60,848 nt of DNA. Source: a bacterium. GTDB taxonomy: Bacteria; Vulcanimicrobiota; Vulcanimicrobiia; Vulcanimicrobiales; SCRA01. The notes beneath the pieces were generated by a model. The model searched no databases, was not told where the DNA came from, and worked only from the letters and a program-made list of their open reading frames with translations. This document shows positions 43,401-59,805 of this stretch, piece by piece. The DNA lies in contig SCRA01000005.1 in NCBI GenBank assembly GCA_004297985.1, forward strand, positions 1 to 60,848. The letters are read 5' to 3'. Within the stretch, counting starts at the first letter, position 1, and every line of letters begins with the position of its first letter. The position numbers and the translations under genes are program-made.

Positions 43401-44093
43401 ATGAATATCGCGACCTGGCGTCGGCGCTTCAAGGACGAGCTCTTCGCGGAGTTCGCTCGCGTCGGCGGCGCGCTTGGCAGCCCCAAGCGCTTGGAGATAC
43501 TCGACCTGCTCGCCCAGCGGGAACGCTCGGTCGAGGATCTCGCGCGCGAGCTGCAGCTCTCGGTGGCCAACGCCTCCCAGCACCTGCAGGCATTGCTTCG
43601 CGCCCGACTCGTGCAAGCGCGCAAAGAAGGCCACTACGTTTATTACGCGGTAGCGGGGCTCGATGTCGTGCGCCTTTGGCAGGCCATTCGCGATGTCGCC
43701 GAAGAGCGCCTCACCGACGTCGAGTCGATCGCCGAGCGCTACCTCGGCAAGCGTGAGTCGATCGAGGATCCGGCAGAGGCCGAAACGTTTCTCGATCTCG
43801 TCGCCAAGGGTGCGGTCGTCCTGCTCGACGTGCGCCCGGTCGAAGAGTATCGTGCTGGCCATCTCCCTGGGGCTCGCGCGCTCCCGGTCGAGCGGCTCCG
43901 CGCTGCCGGAGCTTGCCTAGGATTCCCGCGCGACTGCGAGATCTTGGCGTACTGCCGAGGGCCGTATTGCGCCTTCGCGGACGAGGCGGTGGCGCTGCTG
44001 CGAGAGCAGGGTTACCGTGCGCGGCGTCTGCGGCTCGGACCCCCTGACTGGCGCCTGCGAGGATGGCCCGTGGTTTCTGGCGAGAGCGCATAG
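43401..44093 (+). CDS. ArsR-family regulator fused to a rhodanese domain
   Basis: A 230-residue protein. Residues about 1-100 are an ArsR winged helix (GSPKRLEILDLLAQRERSVEDLARELQLSVANASQHLQALLRARLV). Residues about 125-225 are a rhodanese domain (LLDVRPVEEYRAGHLPGARALP) with the active-site loop CRGPYC, so the catalytic Cys is present. Such fusions sense persulfide or oxyanion stress through the rhodanese or Cys pair. The MFS gene follows after 2 bp. The operator lies immediately upstream. Confidence 0.88.
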   Translation: MNIATWRRRFKDELFAEFARVGGALGSPKRLEILDLLAQRERSVEDLARELQLSVANASQHLQALLRARLVQARKEGHYVYYAVAGLDVVRLWQAIRDVAEERLTDVESIAERYLGKRESIEDPAEAETFLDLVAKGAVVLLDVRPVEEYRAGHLPGARALPVERLRAAGACLGFPRDCEILAYCRGPYCAFADEAVALLREQGYRARRLRLGPPDWRLRGWPVVSGESA

Positions 44094-47538: not shown

Positions 47539-47570
47539 AAAAAAGAGCGGAGCAGCGCGCCGCGCCGCTC
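47539..47570 (-). terminator. Rho-independent terminator of the metal/thiol operon
   Basis: On the minus strand, GAGCGG (47570-47565), a G/C-rich loop able to pair further, and CCGCTC (47550-47545) form a hairpin immediately followed by six U (47544-47539). The stem overlaps the TGA stop of the reductase gene. It is a good intrinsic terminator. The convergent histidine-kinase gene ends at 47527. Confidence 0.75.
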
Positions 47571-48999
47571 AATGTGCCATGCGCGCAGGGAGGTCGGTAA
47601 GCAGCTCCTCGAAGGCGGACTGCACGCCCTCGGCAAGCGTGGGATGAATGAAGACGGCGTCGAGGATCGGTTGCGGAGAGCGGCTCTTCGTGGCCATCGC
47701 GGTCGCCACCACGTGCACGATCTCGCCGGCGTTCGGGCCGAAGAGATGCGCGCCGAGGATGGCGCCGCTGGTTTTGTCGGCCAGCACCTTGATGATGCCG
47801 TCGCGCTCTCCCATCGCCCGGGCCCGGCCGATCTTGGCGAAGGGATAGGTGGCCACGGCCGGATCGAAGCCGCTGGCGCGCGCCTCCGCCTCGGTCAGCC
47901 CCACGCGGGCGACTTCGGGCTCGGTGAAGACCGCGCCGGGAATCACCGTGGGGTCGAAGCGCTCGCTTGCCCCGCTGCTCGCGTTGCGCGCGGCGATGCC
48001 GCCCTCCGTGACCGCGACGTGCGTGTAGAACTGGCTGCCGCTGGTGTGGCCGATCGCGTCGCCGATCGCGAAGACTCCGTCCGCGCTCGTGCGCATGGTG
48101 GGATCGACGTCGATCCACCCGGCGGCAGTCGTCGCGATCCCGGCGTGCGCAACGTCCAGCGCCGCGGCGTTGGGCTCGCGCCCGATGGCCAAGAGCACTT
48201 CGTCGGCGGGGAAGCGCCGCTCGCGTCCGTCGACCGTCGCAATCACGATGCGCGGTGCGTCTCCGTCGCCGGTCTGCCCTCGCTCCATGCGCAACACGTT
48301 CGCGCGCGGCACCATCTCCAGCCCCTCCCGGGCCAGGTACGCCGTGAGCGCGGCACCGATATCGGGATCCTCGTGCGGCAGCACTCGATCGCCGCGGAAG
48401 AGCACCGTGACCGCACTGCCGAAGCGTGCGAACATCTGCGCGAACTCCATGCCGATCGGCCCCGCGCCGACGACCACCAAGCGGCGCGGCAGTCGCGGGA
48501 GCTCCATGATCGAGGCGTTGGTGAGATAGCCGGCCTCTCGCGCGCCGGGGATCGCCGGCGTCACGGGGCGAGAGCCCGTGGCCACGATGACCGAAGCCGC
48601 GGAGAGTTGGCGCCCGTCGTCGAGAGCGATCGTGCGGGCGTCCGCGAAACGCGCCTCTCCGCGAATGAGATCGAGGTGCTCGGCATGTTCGAGCGAGTGC
48701 GTCAGGCGGCCGACCACATCGGCCACCACCGCGTCCTTGCGTGCGATCACCTGCGGAAAGTCGACGCTCACGCCGTGCACGGAGAAGCCGAAGGCGGCGT
48801 TCTCCGGGCGGCGCGCCAGGTGGATCAGTTCGGCGGTCCTGACCAGGGCCTTGGTGGGGATGCACCCCACGTTCATTCAGGTGCCGCCGATCTTCGCGCG
48901 CTCCACCAGCGCAACGCGCATGCCTTGTTCGGCGGCGGTGAAGGCGGTCGAGACGCCACCCATCCCCGCCCCGATGACGATCAGGTCGTAACGATCCAC
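47569..48999 (-). CDS. Flavoprotein disulfide reductase (MerA/dihydrolipoamide dehydrogenase-like) with in-frame TGA at redox Cys: candidate selenoprotein
   Basis: One frame from GTG 48999 (AAGGA upstream) to TGA 47571 encodes 476 residues if the internal TGA at 48879-48877 is read through. It has FAD motif YDLIVIGAGMGG, then IGGT-[TGA]-MNVGCIPTKAL. The family motif is GGTC-x-N-x-GC, so the TGA takes the place of the first redox Cys (position 41); Cys46 is intact. Downstream motifs are all normal: NAD(P) Rossmann VVVGAGPIGMEFAQMF, VFAIGDAIGH, FTEPEVARVGLT and the His-Glu dyad IHPTLAE. No frameshift or other stop occurs. The HPT..E dyad and missing C-terminal CC pair separate it from true MerA. 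Selenocysteine is the favoured reading; mutation or error is the alternative. It is the last gene of a metal/thiol operon. Confidence 0.78.
48835..48850 (-). promoter_or_regulatory. Candidate bacterial SECIS hairpin after the in-frame TGA
   Basis: In the mRNA, bases 29-44 ... counted from the base after the TGA the loop falls at +33 to +36. GGCCCU (48850-48845) can pair with AGGACC (48840-48835) with one C-A mismatch, closing an apical loop GGUC (48844-48841). Bacterial SECIS elements lie just downstream of the UGA in coding sequence and usually carry a G at the start of a small apical loop, with GU important for SelB; this fits. The stem is short, so the prediction is tentative. Confidence 0.4.
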
Positions 49000-49018
49000 G
49001 TTGTTGTCCTTCTTGTTG

Positions 49019-49576
49019 TTACGGATGCGCGGCAAAGGTGGCGATTCGGGACCAGGTCGCGGCTGGAGCGCCGTCGGTGCCAACGATTCGTCCCCGCGCG
49101 TCGACGAGGTAATAGAGGTCCGGGTACGCGTGCGGGTCGAGCGCGCGCGTCTGCGCTTCGGTGGCCTCGCCCCAGTACCAATTGGGCGACGCGGCCGCCA
49201 TCCCGGCGGCTTTGCGAAACGCGGCCAGCGGAGGGCCCGGATACCCGAGGTCCTGTGCGACTTCCAACTGGACGACGCTGATGCCGCGCGCGCGCAGTTC
49301 GGCGATATGTTGTGCCACGACGGCGGTGCCGCCTTGGCAGGAGGAGCACCAGGTAGCCATCAGCCACAGGACGTAGGGGCGGCCACGAAGCGCCGCGGGC
49401 GTCAGAACCTTACCGTCGATCAAGCGATAGCTGAACGGCGGCACGGAAGCGCCCACGGAGAGATCGCCCGACGCGGCGGCGGATTGCGGGAACCAGACCG
49501 CTAGGGCCAGGAGCATACCGGCGAACACGAGGCAGCACGCGTGCAGCCGGCGGCTTATGAGATTGGTCATGGTCAT
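49019..49576 (-). CDS. TlpA-like periplasmic thioredoxin-family protein
   Basis: A 185-residue exported thioredoxin-fold protein: signal peptide or anchor (CLVFAGMLLALAVWFPQSAAA), then the redoxin start (VGASVPPFSYRLIDGKVLTPAALRGRPYVLWLMATWC) with active site C77-SS-C80. The cis-Pro region appears as YPDLYYLVDARGRI. Its ATGA overlap with the upstream membrane-protein gene and 19-bp gap to the reductase gene show they are one operon. It likely exchanges disulfides outside the membrane with the CC-containing membrane proteins. Confidence 0.85.
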   Translation of the reverse strand: MTMTNLISRRLHACCLVFAGMLLALAVWFPQSAAASGDLSVGASVPPFSYRLIDGKVLTPAALRGRPYVLWLMATWCSSCQGGTAVVAQHIAELRARGISVVQLEVAQDLGYPGPPLAAFRKAAGMAAASPNWYWGEATEAQTRALDPHAYPDLYYLVDARGRIVGTDGAPAATWSRIATFAAHP

Positions 49577-50112
49577 CGTTTCTCCGCCGCGAGCGCGCAG
49601 CCAGACGTGAAGTTGTAAGCGGCAAGCCAGACCGAGAGCAACACCAAGCCGATCGACACGGAGACGAACGCCGCAGCGTGCAGGGCGAAGAACGCCTGGA
49701 AGACGCCGCTCGTACGGAAGATCGTCGGTGCCGAGACGCCGAGTGCCGCCAAGACGAGCGGAATCACGGGCGTGCAGCAGAGACTGCTGGGGAGCAGGCT
49801 AGCGACCAAGCCGCCGATACCCAGCGCCCCCGCCCCTTTGCGTAGCCCGCCGTTACCGCCGGCGGCCGCCGCATTCATCGCGATCACGAGGGCGAAGCCA
49901 TAGCCCAGAAGCACAGACGCCAGTACCTGCCACGGCGTAAGAAAGCGCAGAGCGGCGAATGAAAGAGCACCGAGCGTCCCGGCGGGCAGCGCGACGACGT
50001 AGAAAAACGAGATCAGGCTGCCCAACACCAACACGATCACCAGCGTTCGCGCAAGCGCCGGGCGGGAAAACGTCGTGGTCAGGGCCAGGATCAATCGTTG
50101 CATTGGGAGCAT
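49573..50112 (-). CDS. Polytopic membrane protein with vicinal Cys pair
   Basis: A 179-residue membrane protein with about four or five hydrophobic segments. A Cys pair, C112-C113, occurs in SSLCCTPVIPLVLAALG, a CCxP arrangement seen in mercury-transport MerT/MerF proteins and related thiol carriers; C172 is near the C-terminus. The start ATG 50112 lies 2 bp after the stop of the MerF-like gene (ATG 50103 is an alternative). Homology to a named family is not certain. A role in moving a thiophilic metal or thiol electrons across the membrane is inferred from the motif and operon. Confidence 0.7.
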   Translation of the reverse strand: MLPMQRLILALTTTFSRPALARTLVIVLVLGSLISFFYVVALPAGTLGALSFAALRFLTPWQVLASVLLGYGFALVIAMNAAAAGGNGGLRKGAGALGIGGLVASLLPSSLCCTPVIPLVLAALGVSAPTIFRTSGVFQAFFALHAAAFVSVSIGLVLLSVWLAAYNFTSGCALAAEKR

Positions 50113-50114
50113 CG

Positions 50115-50387
50115 CTACGGGTCGAGCGGGTGGCGCTGCACGGGCCAAGCTGACCGCGCCGCGGGAGAGCACCTACGGCGCGTGCGCCATACGAGCCACG
50201 TTGCAGCGGCGCCGCAGAAGACGAGAGCCGCGATCGCGGGCACCGCGATGCGTGTACCGTACGCGCTTATCGTGCCGAGCCCGACCAAGAGACCGCTAGC
50301 GAGCAGCAGTGGGCCCAGGCAGCACGTGGCGGCCGCGAGCACGGCGAGTGCGACGACGGCTCCGTCCAGGATGCCCCCCGCCTTCAC
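50115..50387 (-). CDS. MerF/MerT-like small metal-transport membrane protein
   Basis: A 90-residue protein with two membrane segments. The first contains C22-C23 in ATCCLGPLLLASGLLVGLG, closely resembling the Hg(II)-binding TM1 of MerT/MerF; a third Cys is in TM2 (LVFCGAAATW) and a fourth after it. The GTG start (50387) overlaps the regulator stop as GTGA. The longer open frame upstream is noise. The size and two TM segments favour MerF over three-TM MerT. Confidence 0.72.
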   Translation of the reverse strand: MKAGGILDGAVVALAVLAAATCCLGPLLLASGLLVGLGTISAYGTRIAVPAIAALVFCGAAATWLVWRTRRRCSPAARSAWPVQRHPLDP

Positions 50388-50758
50388 GATGGCTCCCCCA
50401 CAGCCGGGAGCCGGGTGCACGCGGCGATGTGCGAGGCGTTGTCCGCCACCACCGCTTGTGCAAGCTGGAGGATCTTGCGGATTCGGCGGTCGGTCAGCCG
50501 GTAGAGGACCGTTCGCCCACGGCGTTCCGTATCCACGTAGCCGCACCACCGCAGACAGGCCAAGTGGTTGCTGACGCGGCTTTGCGACATGCCGAGATAG
50601 GCGACGATCTCACCCACCGCTCGCGGCCCGTCCAGCAGAAAGCGTATGATGCGTAAGCGCGTGGGGTCGGCAAAGCCGCTCATGAACTTGGCGTACACGA
50701 GATCGGCGACGTCTTCACGTGCCTCCGCTGCTGCAGGACGAAGCTTGGCGGTGCCCAT
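50384..50758 (-). CDS. ArsR-family metal sensor, CmtR-like
   Basis: A 124-residue ArsR/SmtB repressor. The winged helix is ADPTRLRIIRFLLDGPRAVGEIVAYLGMSQSRVSNHLACLRWCGYV. Two Cys, C68 and C72, sit in the recognition helix as ACLRWC, and a third, C115, lies in the C-terminal tail. This is the Cys set known from CmtR (Cd/Pb sensor: C57, C61, C102), and some ArsR-type mer regulators are built similarly. It heads the five-gene operon, with a perfect palindrome ten bases upstream of the start. Expected inducers are Cd, Pb or Hg. Confidence 0.88.
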   Translation of the reverse strand: MGTAKLRPAAAEAREDVADLVYAKFMSGFADPTRLRIIRFLLDGPRAVGEIVAYLGMSQSRVSNHLACLRWCGYVDTERRGRTVLYRLTDRRIRKILQLAQAVVADNASHIAACTRLPAVGEPS

Positions 50759-50767
50759 GGAGATTAA

Positions 50768-50779
50768 ATATCATGATAT
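50768..50779. promoter_or_regulatory. ArsR-type operator of the metal/thiol operon
   Basis: ATATCATGATAT is a perfect 12-bp palindrome ten bases upstream of the ArsR start (50758), within an A/T-rich island (TTAAATATCATGATATCGTGTTATAT). It is suited to autorepression by the adjacent ArsR protein. Confidence 0.7.
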
Positions 50780-50804
50780 CGTGTTATATGTCAAGCGCGC
50801 CTAT

Positions 50805-50818
50805 GTAAGCTCGCTTAC
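50805..50818. promoter_or_regulatory. Crp/Fnr-type operator GTAAG-N4-CTTAC
   Basis: GTAAGCTCGCTTAC is a 5-4-5 inverted repeat, the geometry of Crp/Fnr operators (compare TTGAT-N4-ATCAA). It lies 37 bp before ATG 50856 of a Crp/Fnr-family gene. The same arms recur at 59792-59805. Confidence 0.55.
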
Positions 50819-50855
50819 GGCGGGCGCGTTCGCCACGCGCCTACCCTTGGGGTCG

Positions 50856-51845
50856 ATGGAGCTCATTCTCTATGTCGCACGCGACTGTCCGTTCTCTCCC
50901 CTGGCTCTGGAGCGGCTCCAACGCGTCGCACAGGAGCCTCCGGGGTTCGAAGTGGTAGTGAGAGACGTCGAACAGGCCTCGACGTGCGGCCACCAGGTGG
51001 CCGCGACGCCGACGGTGATCTTTCCGAACGGCACGCGCGTTGTCGGCACGCCGGACATCGGGAGGCTACGACGTATTGTTGCCTCCCTTAGCGGGCAAGG
51101 AGTGAGCATGCCGAACAAGGTCTGGTATCTGGAGCAGAGCCGCTTATTCAAAGGGGTACCGCTGGCGGAGATCGAGCACATGGCGCATCTCTTTCACGAG
51201 TACGACTATGCTCCCAAGCGCCTGATCTTCGGCGAAGGCGACCTCGGCGATGCCGTCTACCTGCTCAAAGTGGGCCACGTCCGCCTCTATCGGTTGACCG
51301 AAGACGGCAAAGAGATCTCGCTCGCCGTGCTCGGCCCGGGCGACGTCTTCGGAGAGCTGGCGCTCTTCGAGGAGATGCGCCGTTCCACGTTCGCCGAGGC
51401 GCTGGATCAGGCGCACGTTTGCGCCGCCTCCATCGAGGATTTCACGCAGCTCATGATCCACCGGCCGCAGCTCACCATGATGGTCGCGCGCGAGATCGCG
51501 CGCCGGCGAACGGAAGCCGAGACGCGCATCGCCGGGATGACCTACGCGAGCGTCAAAGGGCGCTTGGCGGCGGTCATCCAGCACCTGCTCGAAGAGCATG
51601 GGGAGGACCTCACGGGCGGCGGCAAGCGGATCGCTCTGCGCCTCTCGCACCAAGAGCTGGCCAACCTCGTCGGAACGTCACGGGAAACCTGTACGGTGGA
51701 ACTCGGCCGCTTGCAGCGCGCCGGTTTGATCACCTACGATCAAGAGCGCTATCTCGTCGTTCCGCACCCCGAGCGCCTTCAGCCCGGTGCGCTCGAGCGC
51801 GTGCTGCACGCGATCGTCGGGACCGCTACGCGTCGAGCCGTGTGA
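50856..51845 (+). CDS. Thioredoxin-fold / Crp-Fnr fusion regulator
   Basis: A 329-residue fusion. Residues 1-80 are a small thioredoxin/glutaredoxin-like domain (MELILYVARDC11PFS, C44, cis-Pro in AATPTVIFPNGTRVVG). From residue 85 a complete Crp/Fnr protein follows: cAMP-binding-like beta roll (LIFGEGDLGDAVYLLKVGHVRLYRL, GPGDVFGELALFEE) and a C-terminal HTH (LSHQELANLVGTSRETCTVELGRLQRAGLI). An AAGGAG site at 51097-51102 precedes Met85 (ATG 51108), so a short Crp-only form could also be made. The Trx-like module has CPFS, not CxxC, and may sense thiol stress. A palindrome lies upstream. Confidence 0.85.
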   Translation: MELILYVARDCPFSPLALERLQRVAQEPPGFEVVVRDVEQASTCGHQVAATPTVIFPNGTRVVGTPDIGRLRRIVASLSGQGVSMPNKVWYLEQSRLFKGVPLAEIEHMAHLFHEYDYAPKRLIFGEGDLGDAVYLLKVGHVRLYRLTEDGKEISLAVLGPGDVFGELALFEEMRRSTFAEALDQAHVCAASIEDFTQLMIHRPQLTMMVAREIARRRTEAETRIAGMTYASVKGRLAAVIQHLLEEHGEDLTGGGKRIALRLSHQELANLVGTSRETCTVELGRLQRAGLITYDQERYLVVPHPERLQPGALERVLHAIVGTATRRAV

Positions 51846-52503
51846 GCGCCAAGGCCGCATCGAACAGCGTCTTCCCCGTCACATCGGGCGCCAGCATGGC
51901 GGGCGGATACGGCAGGCCGCGGCTGACGTAAGCGGTCGTCAGCCCTGCGCGTCCCGCCCCGTGGATGTCCCACGCGTGCGCCGCGACCAACGCCATGCGC
52001 GAGGGGTCGACCTTCGCGCTCGCGGCAGCGTGGAGATAGACCTCGCGCCGCGGTTTCCAACGGCGAATCTCCTCCACGGAGATCACGCGCTCCACCATCC
52101 CGTCCAGGCCCGCACGTTGCAAGAGGGTCTGCGTGTTCTGGGCGTTGCCGTTGGTGAGCGCCACGATACGCACGCCGTTCTGCTGCAGCGTGTGGAAGGC
52201 TTCCTCGGCGTCGGCGTGCGGCGCCAGCTCGGCGAACCCGGCCAGCACGTGGCCGACGCGCGCGTGATCGGCGGGAACGCGATGCTGGGCGAAGAGGTGC
52301 TCGAGAGCTCCGGAGGCGACGTCTTTGAACGGCACGTAGACGTCCGTGGCGTCGAGGGCGAACGCGTCGCGCAGGACCTGGGCGAACCACAGGTCGAGCG
52401 CGCCGCCCGGCACGCCGGCCGCCTCCAGCCGTCCTCGCAGGGACTCGAGGGAGAACACGGTCTCGATGATGTCGAACGCGACGACGGCTGGACGTAGCTT
52501 CAT
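51826..52503 (-). CDS. Haloacid dehalogenase-like (type II) hydrolase
   Basis: A 225-residue HAD-superfamily enzyme similar to (S)-2-haloacid dehalogenases. The nucleophile Asp is in VVAFDIIETVFS (the usual DxYGT has become DIIET), motif II is ALTNGN, motif III Lys is in RWKPRREVY, and VAAHAWDIHGA is typical of the type II dehalogenases. The 3' end overlaps the convergent fusion regulator gene by 20 bp. The substrate is unknown. It lies next to an AhpD-like gene on the same strand. Confidence 0.85.
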   Translation of the reverse strand: MKLRPAVVAFDIIETVFSLESLRGRLEAAGVPGGALDLWFAQVLRDAFALDATDVYVPFKDVASGALEHLFAQHRVPADHARVGHVLAGFAELAPHADAEEAFHTLQQNGVRIVALTNGNAQNTQTLLQRAGLDGMVERVISVEEIRRWKPRREVYLHAAASAKVDPSRMALVAAHAWDIHGAGRAGLTTAYVSRGLPYPPAMLAPDVTGKTLFDAALALTRLDA

Positions 52504-55248: not shown

Positions 55249-56637
55249 TCAGTACTGGACTGCCACGCGTTGACGGATGAGTCCAACGACGAGGGTGACG
55301 CCGACTACCATCGCGGCGGCGGTGACCAGGAAGATTAGCGTGTAGCTCGCGGGCTTCGTCACCTGCAACATGGCGCCGAAGACGCCGAGCGAGACCGCAC
55401 GCCCCATGTTGTGCGCGAAGTTGAAGAGACCGCCGGCTTCACCCGCCGACCCCTCCGGCACGTGCGTGAGTGCGGACACCGCCGTAGGCGCCAAGGGGAG
55501 CGCCATGCCGATGCCTTCGATCACCATGATCGTGGTCAGCGCGAGCGGCGAGATCGACGGGCCCAACAGCGCGAGCAAGATGAAACCCGCGACCATGATC
55601 GTGAAGCCCATGACCCACGGGGTCACCTCGCCGAGGCGGTCGGTGAGCCAACCGCCCCAGACACCGACGACGATCGCTGTGACCGCCAATGGCAAGAGCG
55701 CGTTAGAGGCTTGCAAGGCACTGTAGCCGCCCACGTACTGAAGCTCGAGCGGAACGAACATCATCGCCGAGAACATGCCGACGCAGACCAGGAACGTGCC
55801 GACATTGCCCAGGACGAACGGACGAATGCGGTACAGGCTCATATCGAAGAGCGGTTGCTTCTCGGTGCGCTGATTGAACCAAAGGACCGCGAGACCGACG
55901 ATGAACAGTCCGTAGAGCATCAGCGCCATCGTGCCCATCGTCGCGCCGATCGCCTTGGAGAGGCCGGATGCCATCGTATCCATCGCTGAGCCCGAAGCGG
56001 CAAGCGCGACCACGAGCGCCGAAAAGGCGACTACGAACGAGAGCGACCCCACCCAATCGAAGCGGCCCTCGCCGCTACGCGGAAGCTCTTCCAAGGCGAA
56101 GGCGCTCCAAATCCATACCAGCGCGGCGATTGGAGCAGTAACCCAGAAGATTGAAGGCCAGCCCCAGTACGCACTGAGGTAGCCGCCGACCACCGGGCCG
56201 GCCACCGTGCCGGAGAGCAGCGCCGCCCGCCAAGTTCCCAACGCTAGGCCCGTTCGTTCGCGGATCTGCGCGCTGATGAAGACGATCGAGACCAAGATGA
56301 TGCCGCCGCCGAGGCCCTGCAGCGTATGCAGCGCGACGAGGCTGGCGATATTCGGCGCGTATCCCGCGAACGCTGACGTGAGCGCATAAAGGCCCAGCCC
56401 CCAGAGGAAGATGCGCCGATGACCGCATGCATCTCCCAGTTTCCCGACGACCGGCATGACGACCGCGTATGGCACGAGGTATGAGATGACCACGTAGACC
56501 AGATCGAAGCTTCCGCCGTGGAAGGCCTGCACGATCTTCGGCAAGGGCACGTTCACGATGCCGGCGCTCAGGTTCGAGAGGAACGTCGCAATCGACGTGA
56601 TCGCGACGATGGTGAACGGGGAGACATCGTTCTTCAT
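55249..56637 (-). CDS. MFS transporter, DHA2 (EmrB/QacA) type
   Basis: A 462-residue drug:proton-antiporter-like protein with about 14 hydrophobic segments. Motif A-like GKLGDACGHRRIF, motif C-like GTVAGPVVGGYLSAYWGWPSIFWV and the later GGWLTDRLG are visible. ATG 56637 overlaps the ATPase stop as ATGA. Coupling to a heavy-metal ATPase and control from a MerR-type promoter suggests a metal or metal-complex substrate rather than a drug; this is inference. Confidence 0.88.
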   Translation of the reverse strand: MKNDVSPFTIVAITSIATFLSNLSAGIVNVPLPKIVQAFHGGSFDLVYVVISYLVPYAVVMPVVGKLGDACGHRRIFLWGLGLYALTSAFAGYAPNIASLVALHTLQGLGGGIILVSIVFISAQIRERTGLALGTWRAALLSGTVAGPVVGGYLSAYWGWPSIFWVTAPIAALVWIWSAFALEELPRSGEGRFDWVGSLSFVVAFSALVVALAASGSAMDTMASGLSKAIGATMGTMALMLYGLFIVGLAVLWFNQRTEKQPLFDMSLYRIRPFVLGNVGTFLVCVGMFSAMMFVPLELQYVGGYSALQASNALLPLAVTAIVVGVWGGWLTDRLGEVTPWVMGFTIMVAGFILLALLGPSISPLALTTIMVIEGIGMALPLAPTAVSALTHVPEGSAGEAGGLFNFAHNMGRAVSLGVFGAMLQVTKPASYTLIFLVTAAAMVVGVTLVVGLIRQRVAVQY

Positions 56638-58850
56638 GACACCGTTCCTTTGGCGAGCCGTCCGGCGAAGGAGTTGAACAACACGGTCGTGACGCTGGCG
56701 GCCATGGCCAGCATCGCCCACACGGGGTAAAGCAAGCCGCTCGCTGCCAGCGGGATGCCAAGGCCGTTGAAGGCGAAGGCTAACGACAAGTTCTGGACGG
56801 TCTTGGCGTAGCTACGCTTGGCGATGTCGAGAACGTCGGGAACCGCGTACAGCGAATGTGCCATCACGACCACATCGGCTGATTCGATTGCGATATCGGT
56901 ACCGGCACCCATGGCGATGCCGACGTCCGCCTGCATGAGGGCGGGGGCGTCGTTGATGCCATCGCCGACCATGGCTACGCGCACGCCCTCGCGTTGCAGG
57001 TCACGCACGCGCTCTGCCTTCTCGTGCGGCAGAGCATGAGCGATCACGCGTTGGATGCCAACGCTCGCTGCCACAGCTTGGGCGGCGCGCTCGTTGTCGC
57101 CGGTGATCATCACGCACTCGATGCCCTGGGAGCACAGGCGAGCAATGACGGCTTTGGCCTCCGGACGCGGTTCGTCGCCAAGCGCGATGCTTCCGATGAA
57201 TTGCTTGCCGCGAGCGACGCCGACCACGGTCGCGGCCGGCGGCAGCTCTCCGGCCGCGGCGGACGGCACGCTAACCCCTTGCCCTCCGAGAAAACGCAGG
57301 CTTCCCACAAGCACGTGCTCGCCGTTGAGACTGCCCTCCACGCCGCGGCCTGCGGCTTCATGGAAGTCCGTAGGCTCGGCAAGCTCGACGCCGCTCTCGC
57401 GTGCATGGTTGACGATCGCCTCGGCAAGCGTGTGACGCGAGTAACGCTCGAGTGAGGCCGCCAGGTGCAGCGCCTCAGGAGAGGCGGTGCCGATGACTTT
57501 GGGCTTGCCCACGGTGAGCGTGCCGGTTTTGTCGAAGACCACGAGCTGAGTATCTTTGAGCACTTGGAACGACTCGGCGCTGCGCATCAAGATGCCACGT
57601 TGCGCGGCTTCGCCTCCGCCGCGGATCATCGCTAAAGGCGTCGCCATGCCAAGCGCGCACGGATAGCCCATGACCAGGACGGAAAGCGTCGCGAACGCGA
57701 CACGCGTCCAGTCGATTCCGCCGTGCATCATGCCGTACACGATCCATCCGAGCAGAGCTGCCGCTGCGACCGTGAGGACGGTGGGGACGTAGATGAGCAG
57801 GATGCGTTCGACCAGGACCAAGATCGCGGGTTTGAGAGCCTTGGCCGCCTCGACCTCACGCGCCACCCGGGCGACGAAGCTCTGCGCAGCGAGCGTAGTC
57901 ACCGCAATGAGCAGCGCGCCATCGGTATCGATGGAGCCCCCGATGACGCTTGTCCCCGGCCGTTTGGTGACCGGAAGCGGCTCGCCCGTGACCATCGACT
58001 CATCGATTGAGGCGATACCCTCGAGAACTTCACCATCGAGTGGGATGCGCTCGCCGACCCGTACCCGGACCTGCTCGCCAACCGCGATTTGATCGACGGG
58101 CACTTCCAGCTCTTGTCCGTCGCGAACGACGCGCGCCGTATCCGGCTGCAGCTCCAGCACTTTGCGTACGGCCTGCGAGGCACGCGTGCGCACGAGGCCA
58201 GCCACGAAGCTGCTGAGCGTGTGATACGTCATCAGGAACGCAGCCGCGCCGAAAAAATCTGCCGCCGGTAGCGCGCGGTCGAAGATGCCGATGAGGCCGG
58301 CGGTGTACCCGCCCAAGGCTCCGAAGCTGAGCAGCACGTGTTGATTGAGGATGCCGCGGCGCACAGCAGCAAAGGCCATGCGCAGAAACTTCACGCCCGC
58401 CGCGAAGACGACGACGCCCGAAAGTGCGGCCATCCAGGCGATCTCCCAGGACGGGCTGATCGGCGCGTGGGCCCACTCACCGATCATCATGATCAGCCCT
58501 GCGCCGCTGATGAGTACGGCCAGCAAGAGCCTGCGCCGCTCGGCATCGAGCTCGTGCTCTTCCTCCTCAAACGCGCGAAGCTTGTTGGGATCACGTATCG
58601 AGTAGCCGAGAGAGCGCAGGAGATCGCTGACCCGGCCGTATGTTGCAGGCTCCCCGTCGTACTCGATGAGCGCCTCTTCGTGCGCGAGATTGACGGCGGC
58701 GCTCGAGATACCAGGAAGTTGCTGGAGCGCCCGCTCCACGCTTTGTCGGCAGAACGAGCACTGCATGCCGCCGATTCCGATCTGCGCCCGAGCCGGCTTC
58801 GCGTCCGCGGACGGCTTGGCAACCTTGGTCTGCGACCGATCGGGGCGCAC
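56634..58850 (-). CDS. P1B-type ATPase with HMA domain and YPC in place of CPC
   Basis: A 738-residue heavy-metal ATPase. An N-terminal HMA domain has GMQCSFC (C31, C34). Catalytic motifs are MVTGEPLPVTK, DKTGTLT (Asp440), TGDNERAA and [10 protein letters not shown]. The transmembrane motif is Y396-P-C398 (VMGYPCALGMATP) instead of CPC, and the HP motif reads SRHTL rather than SEHPL. Start choice: GGAGG at 58860-58856 lies five bases before GTG 58850; an in-frame start at 58904 would coincide with the predicted transcription start. It leads the operon of MFS and Cys-rich membrane genes, opposite a MerR/chaperone operon. Confidence 0.88.
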   Translation of the reverse strand: MRPDRSQTKVAKPSADAKPARAQIGIGGMQCSFCRQSVERALQQLPGISSAAVNLAHEEALIEYDGEPATYGRVSDLLRSLGYSIRDPNKLRAFEEEEHELDAERRRLLLAVLISGAGLIMMIGEWAHAPISPSWEIAWMAALSGVVVFAAGVKFLRMAFAAVRRGILNQHVLLSFGALGGYTAGLIGIFDRALPAADFFGAAAFLMTYHTLSSFVAGLVRTRASQAVRKVLELQPDTARVVRDGQELEVPVDQIAVGEQVRVRVGERIPLDGEVLEGIASIDESMVTGEPLPVTKRPGTSVIGGSIDTDGALLIAVTTLAAQSFVARVAREVEAAKALKPAILVLVERILLIYVPTVLTVAAAALLGWIVYGMMHGGIDWTRVAFATLSVLVMGYPCALGMATPLAMIRGGGEAAQRGILMRSAESFQVLKDTQLVVFDKTGTLTVGKPKVIGTASPEALHLAASLERYSRHTLAEAIVNHARESGVELAEPTDFHEAAGRGVEGSLNGEHVLVGSLRFLGGQGVSVPSAAAGELPPAATVVGVARGKQFIGSIALGDEPRPEAKAVIARLCSQGIECVMITGDNERAAQAVAASVGIQRVIAHALPHEKAERVRDLQREGVRVAMVGDGINDAPALMQADVGIAMGAGTDIAIESADVVVMAHSLYAVPDVLDIAKRSYAKTVQNLSLAFAFNGLGIPLAASGLLYPVWAMLAMAASVTTVLFNSFAGRLAKGTVS

Positions 58851-58910
58851 GGCGACCTCCGGTCCGCTTGGATCTCGAGAGTGGGAAGGCGTTGTCCTCA
58901 TCACGGCGCC

Positions 58911-59791: not shown

Positions 59792-59805
59792 GTAAGAAAG
59801 CTTAC
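59792..59805. promoter_or_regulatory. Second GTAAG-N4-CTTAC palindrome
   Basis: GTAAGAAAGCTTAC repeats the arms of the site at 50805-50818 with a different four-base centre. It lies 46 bp before ATG 59852 of the secreted-protein gene, a typical place for a Crp/Fnr-family operator. Confidence 0.5.

Follow-up and report, generated by a model that had tools for sequence, protein, structure and literature searches.

A Crp/Fnr regulator with a fused monothiol thioredoxin-fold domain in Eremiobacterota and its candidate operator

A single uninterrupted reading frame encoding 329 residues is present at positions 50856 to 51845 of the 60,848-nucleotide stretch of DNA analysed here (referred to as the window), and an earlier note, made from the sequence alone, had described its product as a small redoxin joined to a Crp/Fnr regulator. 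This locus raises the question of whether the join is genuine and, if so, what the additional domain contributes and which genes the protein controls. Pfam matches to cNMP_binding (residues 118 to 200, 1.8e-21) and HTH_Crp_2 (residues 236 to 309, 3.1e-16) confirmed that a complete Crp/Fnr protein stands behind the N-terminal domain. The database search for the same fusion that the earlier note had suggested covered 149 genomes of the phylum and detected 15 intact in-frame fusions from fifteen species, all in one order of Eremiobacterota. One extra copy (G074) was truncated and had directly upstream a gene that we take, from its sequence alone, to encode a transposase. A scan of 84,980 species with two peptide patterns, which reaches close relatives only, gave 14 full-length relatives and, in a record from Acidobacteria, a single weak match to the Crp part only. 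No title among the 14 pointed to a different phylum; several read just "bacterium". No relatives were found in the viral contigs searched, and an Rfam search of positions 48700 to 51900 gave no match. The coordinates of the features discussed below are collected in Table 1.

Table 1. Positions of the fusion gene, its predicted control elements and linked features in the window
Feature	Position	Strand	Basis or remark
Redoxin-Crp fusion regulator CDS, 329 aa	50856..51845	+	Single ORF; in-frame fusion shared by 15 genomes
Thioredoxin-fold monothiol domain, residues 1-80	50856..51095	+	Cys11 in CxF[S/T], cis-Pro52, GTP motif 64-66
Crp/Fnr part, residues 88-309 (cNMP-binding fold + HTH)	51117..51782	+	Pfam matches, alignment
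Candidate operator of the fusion regulator, GTAAGC-TC-GCTTAC	50805..50818		Conserved at 15 fusion loci; inferred
Candidate -10 box TACCCT	50842..50847	+	23 nt past palindrome; same spacing in relatives
Internal start codon ATG (Met85)	51108..51110	+	ATG/GTG in 15/15 homologues
AAGGAG ahead of internal start	51097..51102	+	Shine-Dalgarno strength within chance
ArsR/SmtB-family regulator heading the neighbouring operon, divergent	50384..50758	-	
Palindrome ATATCATGATAT, candidate ArsR operator	50768..50779		Just upstream of ArsR gene; assignment inferred
MerA/dihydrolipoyl dehydrogenase-like reductase, candidate selenoprotein	47569..49002	-	In-frame TGA at 48877-48879

An assembly or sequencing error could in principle have joined two separate genes, as the earlier note had allowed. 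We found no point in favour of such an error, whose probability is negligible: it is refuted by the identical in-frame join in 15 separate genomes from several studies, and no stand-alone copy of the N-terminal domain was detected at an E value of ≤0.001 among 101 relatives. The fused Crp parts were monophyletic (support, 99/100). Ka/Ks ratios for the N-terminal domain were 0.12 to 0.26 for pairs within a family (Ks of about 0.1 to 1.4) and 0.34 to 0.48 between the two families, where Ks is near saturation; these ratios indicated that the domain is under purifying selection. Comparison of the sequences showed that the fusion arose once, in one Eremiobacterota order, and that selection keeps it. 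No earlier report of a Crp/Fnr-thioredoxin fusion was found in the literature searched, and this conserved domain architecture is, as far as our searches go, previously unreported.

The identity of the N-terminal domain was examined by profile, structural and alignment analyses. With a single sequence, residues 1 to 84 gave only Pfam matches to Thioredoxin_3 and DSBA below the cut-off. A profile of the 15 sequences matched the archaeal small thioredoxins 1NHO (2.7e-4) and 1FO5 (1.4e-3) and, more weakly than 1NHO, KaiB (0.38). Structure prediction, proposed in the earlier note as a check, yielded a thioredoxin fold: the AlphaFold2 model of the domain had a pLDDT of 91.6 and a beta-alpha-beta-beta-beta-alpha order, and Foldseek comparison with the PDB returned thioredoxins and thioredoxin-fold KaiB, the best single match being KaiB. 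(A full-length model of the fusion was poor, with a pLDDT of 59, and was set aside.) Profile, model and alignment were thus in agreement on a beta-alpha-beta/beta-beta-alpha thioredoxin fold with a cis-proline, and the small-redoxin fold predicted for approximately the first 80 residues, together with its CPFS and ATPT (cis-Pro52) motifs, was borne out.

The proposed second redox cysteine, Cys44, fared differently. Fifteen columns of the N-terminal domain were invariant in the 15-sequence alignment, including Cys11, Phe13, Pro52 and Gly64-Thr-Pro66, while Cys44 was limited to the window genome and one other (G003), so that Cys11 is the only cysteine kept in this domain. Position 14 was Ser or Thr and never Cys, giving CxF[S/T] in 15/15 sequences. 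The lack of a cysteine at position 14 and the rarity of Cys44 indicated that this is a monothiol thioredoxin-fold domain; a dithiol thioredoxin or glutaredoxin was rejected for want of a CxxC motif. Membership of the MJ0307 family (TIGR00411) was also rejected, as the domain scored 18 bits against a curated cut-off of 92.75. It resembles the archaeal thioredoxins MJ0307 and Mt0807 (1FO5 and 1NHO; TIGR00411) in fold, length, cis-proline and C-terminal G-x-PS-xx-L but differs in having CxF[S/T] in place of CxxC, in its location within a regulator and in falling under the TIGR00411 cut-off.

The remainder of the protein combines the cNMP-binding fold and Crp-type HTH of the Crp/Fnr superfamily. 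Only three cysteines of the fusion protein (Cys11, Cys189 and Cys279) were invariant in the 15-sequence alignment, and the FNR (Fe-S) subgroup was rejected since its four-cysteine ligand set is lacking. Cys279 lies in the recognition helix and is invariant across the fused clade, whereas non-fused sisters have Val at this position. Relative to known Crp/Fnr regulators (PF00027 plus PF13545), the protein is alike in its cNMP-binding fold, Crp HTH and predicted class II spacing (see below) and different in its extra N-terminal thioredoxin-fold domain, its recognition-helix cysteine and the absence of an Fe-S cysteine cluster. Of the cAMP-contacting residues of the phosphate-binding cassette, by which the cAMP-CRP subgroup is recognised, GE and R are kept in the fusions and the window genus has RS, the Ser position being occupied by Gln in the other family; the score against PRK11753 was far under the cut-off. 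A monothiol thioredoxin fold may also serve simply in binding other proteins. A KaiB/SasA-like interaction module with a structural Cys11, in a regulator responding to a small molecule through the cNMP pocket, would be compatible with the retained cassette residues, with the lack of a second conserved cysteine and with the ranking of KaiB in the Foldseek comparison. The preference of the profile for thioredoxins, the invariance of both Cys11 and cis-Pro52 and the metal/thiol genes nearby argue against this alternative, which we consider unlikely.

Comparison of upstream regions was used to examine the DNA target of the regulator. A palindrome, GTRAGC-NN-GCTYAC, was detected at 15/15 fusion loci, two of which were degenerate, with one mismatch to GTRAGCNNGCTYAC in G065 and two in G051. 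It lay before the fusion gene itself in the window genus and, in most members of the other family, before the first gene of the operon containing the fusion, and at every fusion locus a TAnnnT -10 box was found 22 to 23 nt past it. The predicted target sequence of the fusion regulator is GTAAGCTCGCTTAC. The pattern GTRAGN4CTYAC is rare, with 3 to 6 occurrences per genome, and the palindrome with a -10 box at the 22-nt spacing was found in 29 of the 43 genomes that have a Crp match versus 1 of the 58 that have none (Fisher test, 1.1e-13, a value that overstates independence because the fusion genomes are related). The element was also found 32 to 79 nt upstream of the matched start of a non-fused sister Crp in five genomes (G010, G037, G088, G091 and G057) and overlapping the start of such a match in G030, which ruled out an operator that marks fusion genomes only. 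As the non-fused sister Crps have the palindrome at their own promoters, it is probably the operator of the regulator. Most simply, members of this Crp subfamily would bind the palindrome, activate from about -41/-42 and control their own expression, the fusion having inherited its site. Judged by conservation, the fusion would share with the Crp/Fnr superfamily a palindromic operator ahead of the promoters it regulates, and the layout of the site, GTRAG-N4-CTYAC, resembles that of the CRP site, TGTGA-N6-TCACA.

The spacing of these elements suggested a mode of action. The palindrome would be centred at about -41/-42, the position of a class II activator, and a site centred about 41 to 42 bp before the transcription start would make the regulator such an activator. 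Transcription would start at about position 50854, two bases before the ATG, and the mRNA would in consequence be nearly leaderless; this would explain why no clear Shine-Dalgarno sequence was found upstream of the first start codon. Other related sites were observed. Two species share GTAAGAAAGCTTAC, letter for letter, close to similar ORFs (59792-59805 in the window and G002:C23:6107-6120); it may be another site of the Crp subfamily and lacks the usual -10 spacing. Three conserved GTAAGAG-N2-CTTAC-like sites with TATACT at 22 nt (G003:C159:6080, G001:C16:9830 and G001:C26:1834) had no clear ORF within reach.

The earlier note had further proposed that a Crp-only form is made from Met85. The AAGGAG was located 5 nt before this ATG, as claimed. 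Its strength was that expected from the encoded residues, with 46% of synonymous resamplings being equal or better, and Shine-Dalgarno strength at codon 85 over 15 genomes did not differ from the synonymous-codon null (p = 0.21); the AAGGAG was accordingly rejected as evidence for an internal start. The mRNA structure at codon 85 was unremarkable. Codon 85 itself was ATG in 8 and GTG in 7 of the 15 homologues and was the sole variable hydrophobic column that is always ATG or GTG, GTG making up only 38% of Val codons. When corrected for relatedness, synonymous change was lowest in the 5-codon windows at codons 1 to 5 and 82 to 86, the latter falling to third place without codon 85; the very low raw variability at codons 82 to 86 was inflated by close relatives and was replaced by the corrected version. 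The case for two products therefore rests on the conserved start codon and the synonymous dip and not on the Shine-Dalgarno sequence, and a short form starting at codon 85 is quite possible, if somewhat short of probable. Such an arrangement would resemble that of phage endolysins, which include two-product in-frame genes (PMC9430671), in a possible internal in-frame start and a common stop codon; the second product here is predicted from sequence. It is highly improbable that Crp made from codon 85 does all the work, with the region ahead of it a rarely translated remnant. The conserved codon 85 start and the lack of a clear Shine-Dalgarno sequence at the first start would suit a remnant, but the N-terminal domain is under clear purifying selection with invariant active-site residues, the synonymous dip is present at codons 1 to 5 too, and a leaderless mRNA would account for the absent Shine-Dalgarno sequence.

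The genes associated with the fusion gave an indication of its regulon. A secreted Met/His-rich protein containing a Big_7 Ig-like stretch was encoded by 13 of the 15 fusion genomes, compared with 1 of the other 86 (Fisher test, 1.8e-13, again overstated by the relatedness of the fusion genomes). Its gene was upstream of the fusion on the same strand in eight genomes, directly before it in most, and had the palindrome element upstream in 11 of its fusion genomes; unlinked copies with the element were found on G000:C1 (window genome) and G003:C230. An SCO1-like gene was upstream instead in G045 and G051, with a TlpA-like gene also in G051. The regulon thus appears to centre on the secreted Met/His-rich protein. 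In the window, the fusion gene is divergent from an operon of ArsR, weakly MerT-like, unannotated membrane, TlpA-like and MerA-like genes, in agreement with the metal/thiol operon noted earlier, and this neighbourhood points to soft metals and thiols as a theme. Elsewhere in the window, a heavy-metal P-type ATPase with an N-terminal metal-binding domain is encoded at 56634-58904 (-), its usual CPC being YPC. An ORF at 43401-44093 (+) combines, as read from its translation, an ArsR-type HTH and a rhodanese-like C-terminal half, and a second such ORF is present on G000:C59. ArsR-rhodanese fusions, of which the former is an apparent example, likewise join a sulfur/redox domain to an HTH regulator, with a different regulator family and domain order.

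In the MerA-like reductase of the divergent operon, an in-frame TGA takes precisely the place of the first Cys in a C-x4-C redox pair (U-x4-C). G001, whose reductase homologue comes immediately after the fusion gene in the same orientation, has this TGA too, as does a decayed copy on G000:C59. SelA, SelB and tRNA-Sec were all identified, and both intact reductase genes carry an identical hairpin, GTGGGG-TGCAT-CCCCAC, after the TGA. The parts consulted of a 2026 review on selenoproteins in prokaryotes (PMC13188914) contained no U-x4-C reductase. The reductase is a strong candidate for a new selenoprotein, and with its TGA at a redox cysteine would tie the fusion locus to selenium too.

Overall, these analyses favour an autoregulated Crp/Fnr activator with the monothiol domain as its input and a role in a soft-metal/thiol response, and we regard this explanation as a whole as probable. 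The regulator would bind GTRAGC-NN-GCTYAC at about 41 to 42 bp before the start and act as a class II activator on its own gene and on those encoding secreted Met/His-rich proteins, joined in some genomes by SCO1/TlpA-type genes. Cys11, possibly together with Cys279, may react with a thiol oxidant or bind a soft metal (for example, copper or mercury), and this event would determine how active the Crp part is. A bolder and rather doubtful version is a new sensor class, in which a soft metal or thiol oxidant is detected by the fused monothiol domain and the protein exists as a long form made from leaderless mRNA and a Crp-only form initiated internally, both binding the same operator and the short form modulating the response. 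The predicted operator and small regulon make the system directly testable. Eremiobacterota are a little-known phylum of acid and metal-rich sites in which few regulators have been studied, and, if the preferred reading is correct, a redox/metal input domain would have been added there to a very widespread bacterial regulator family.
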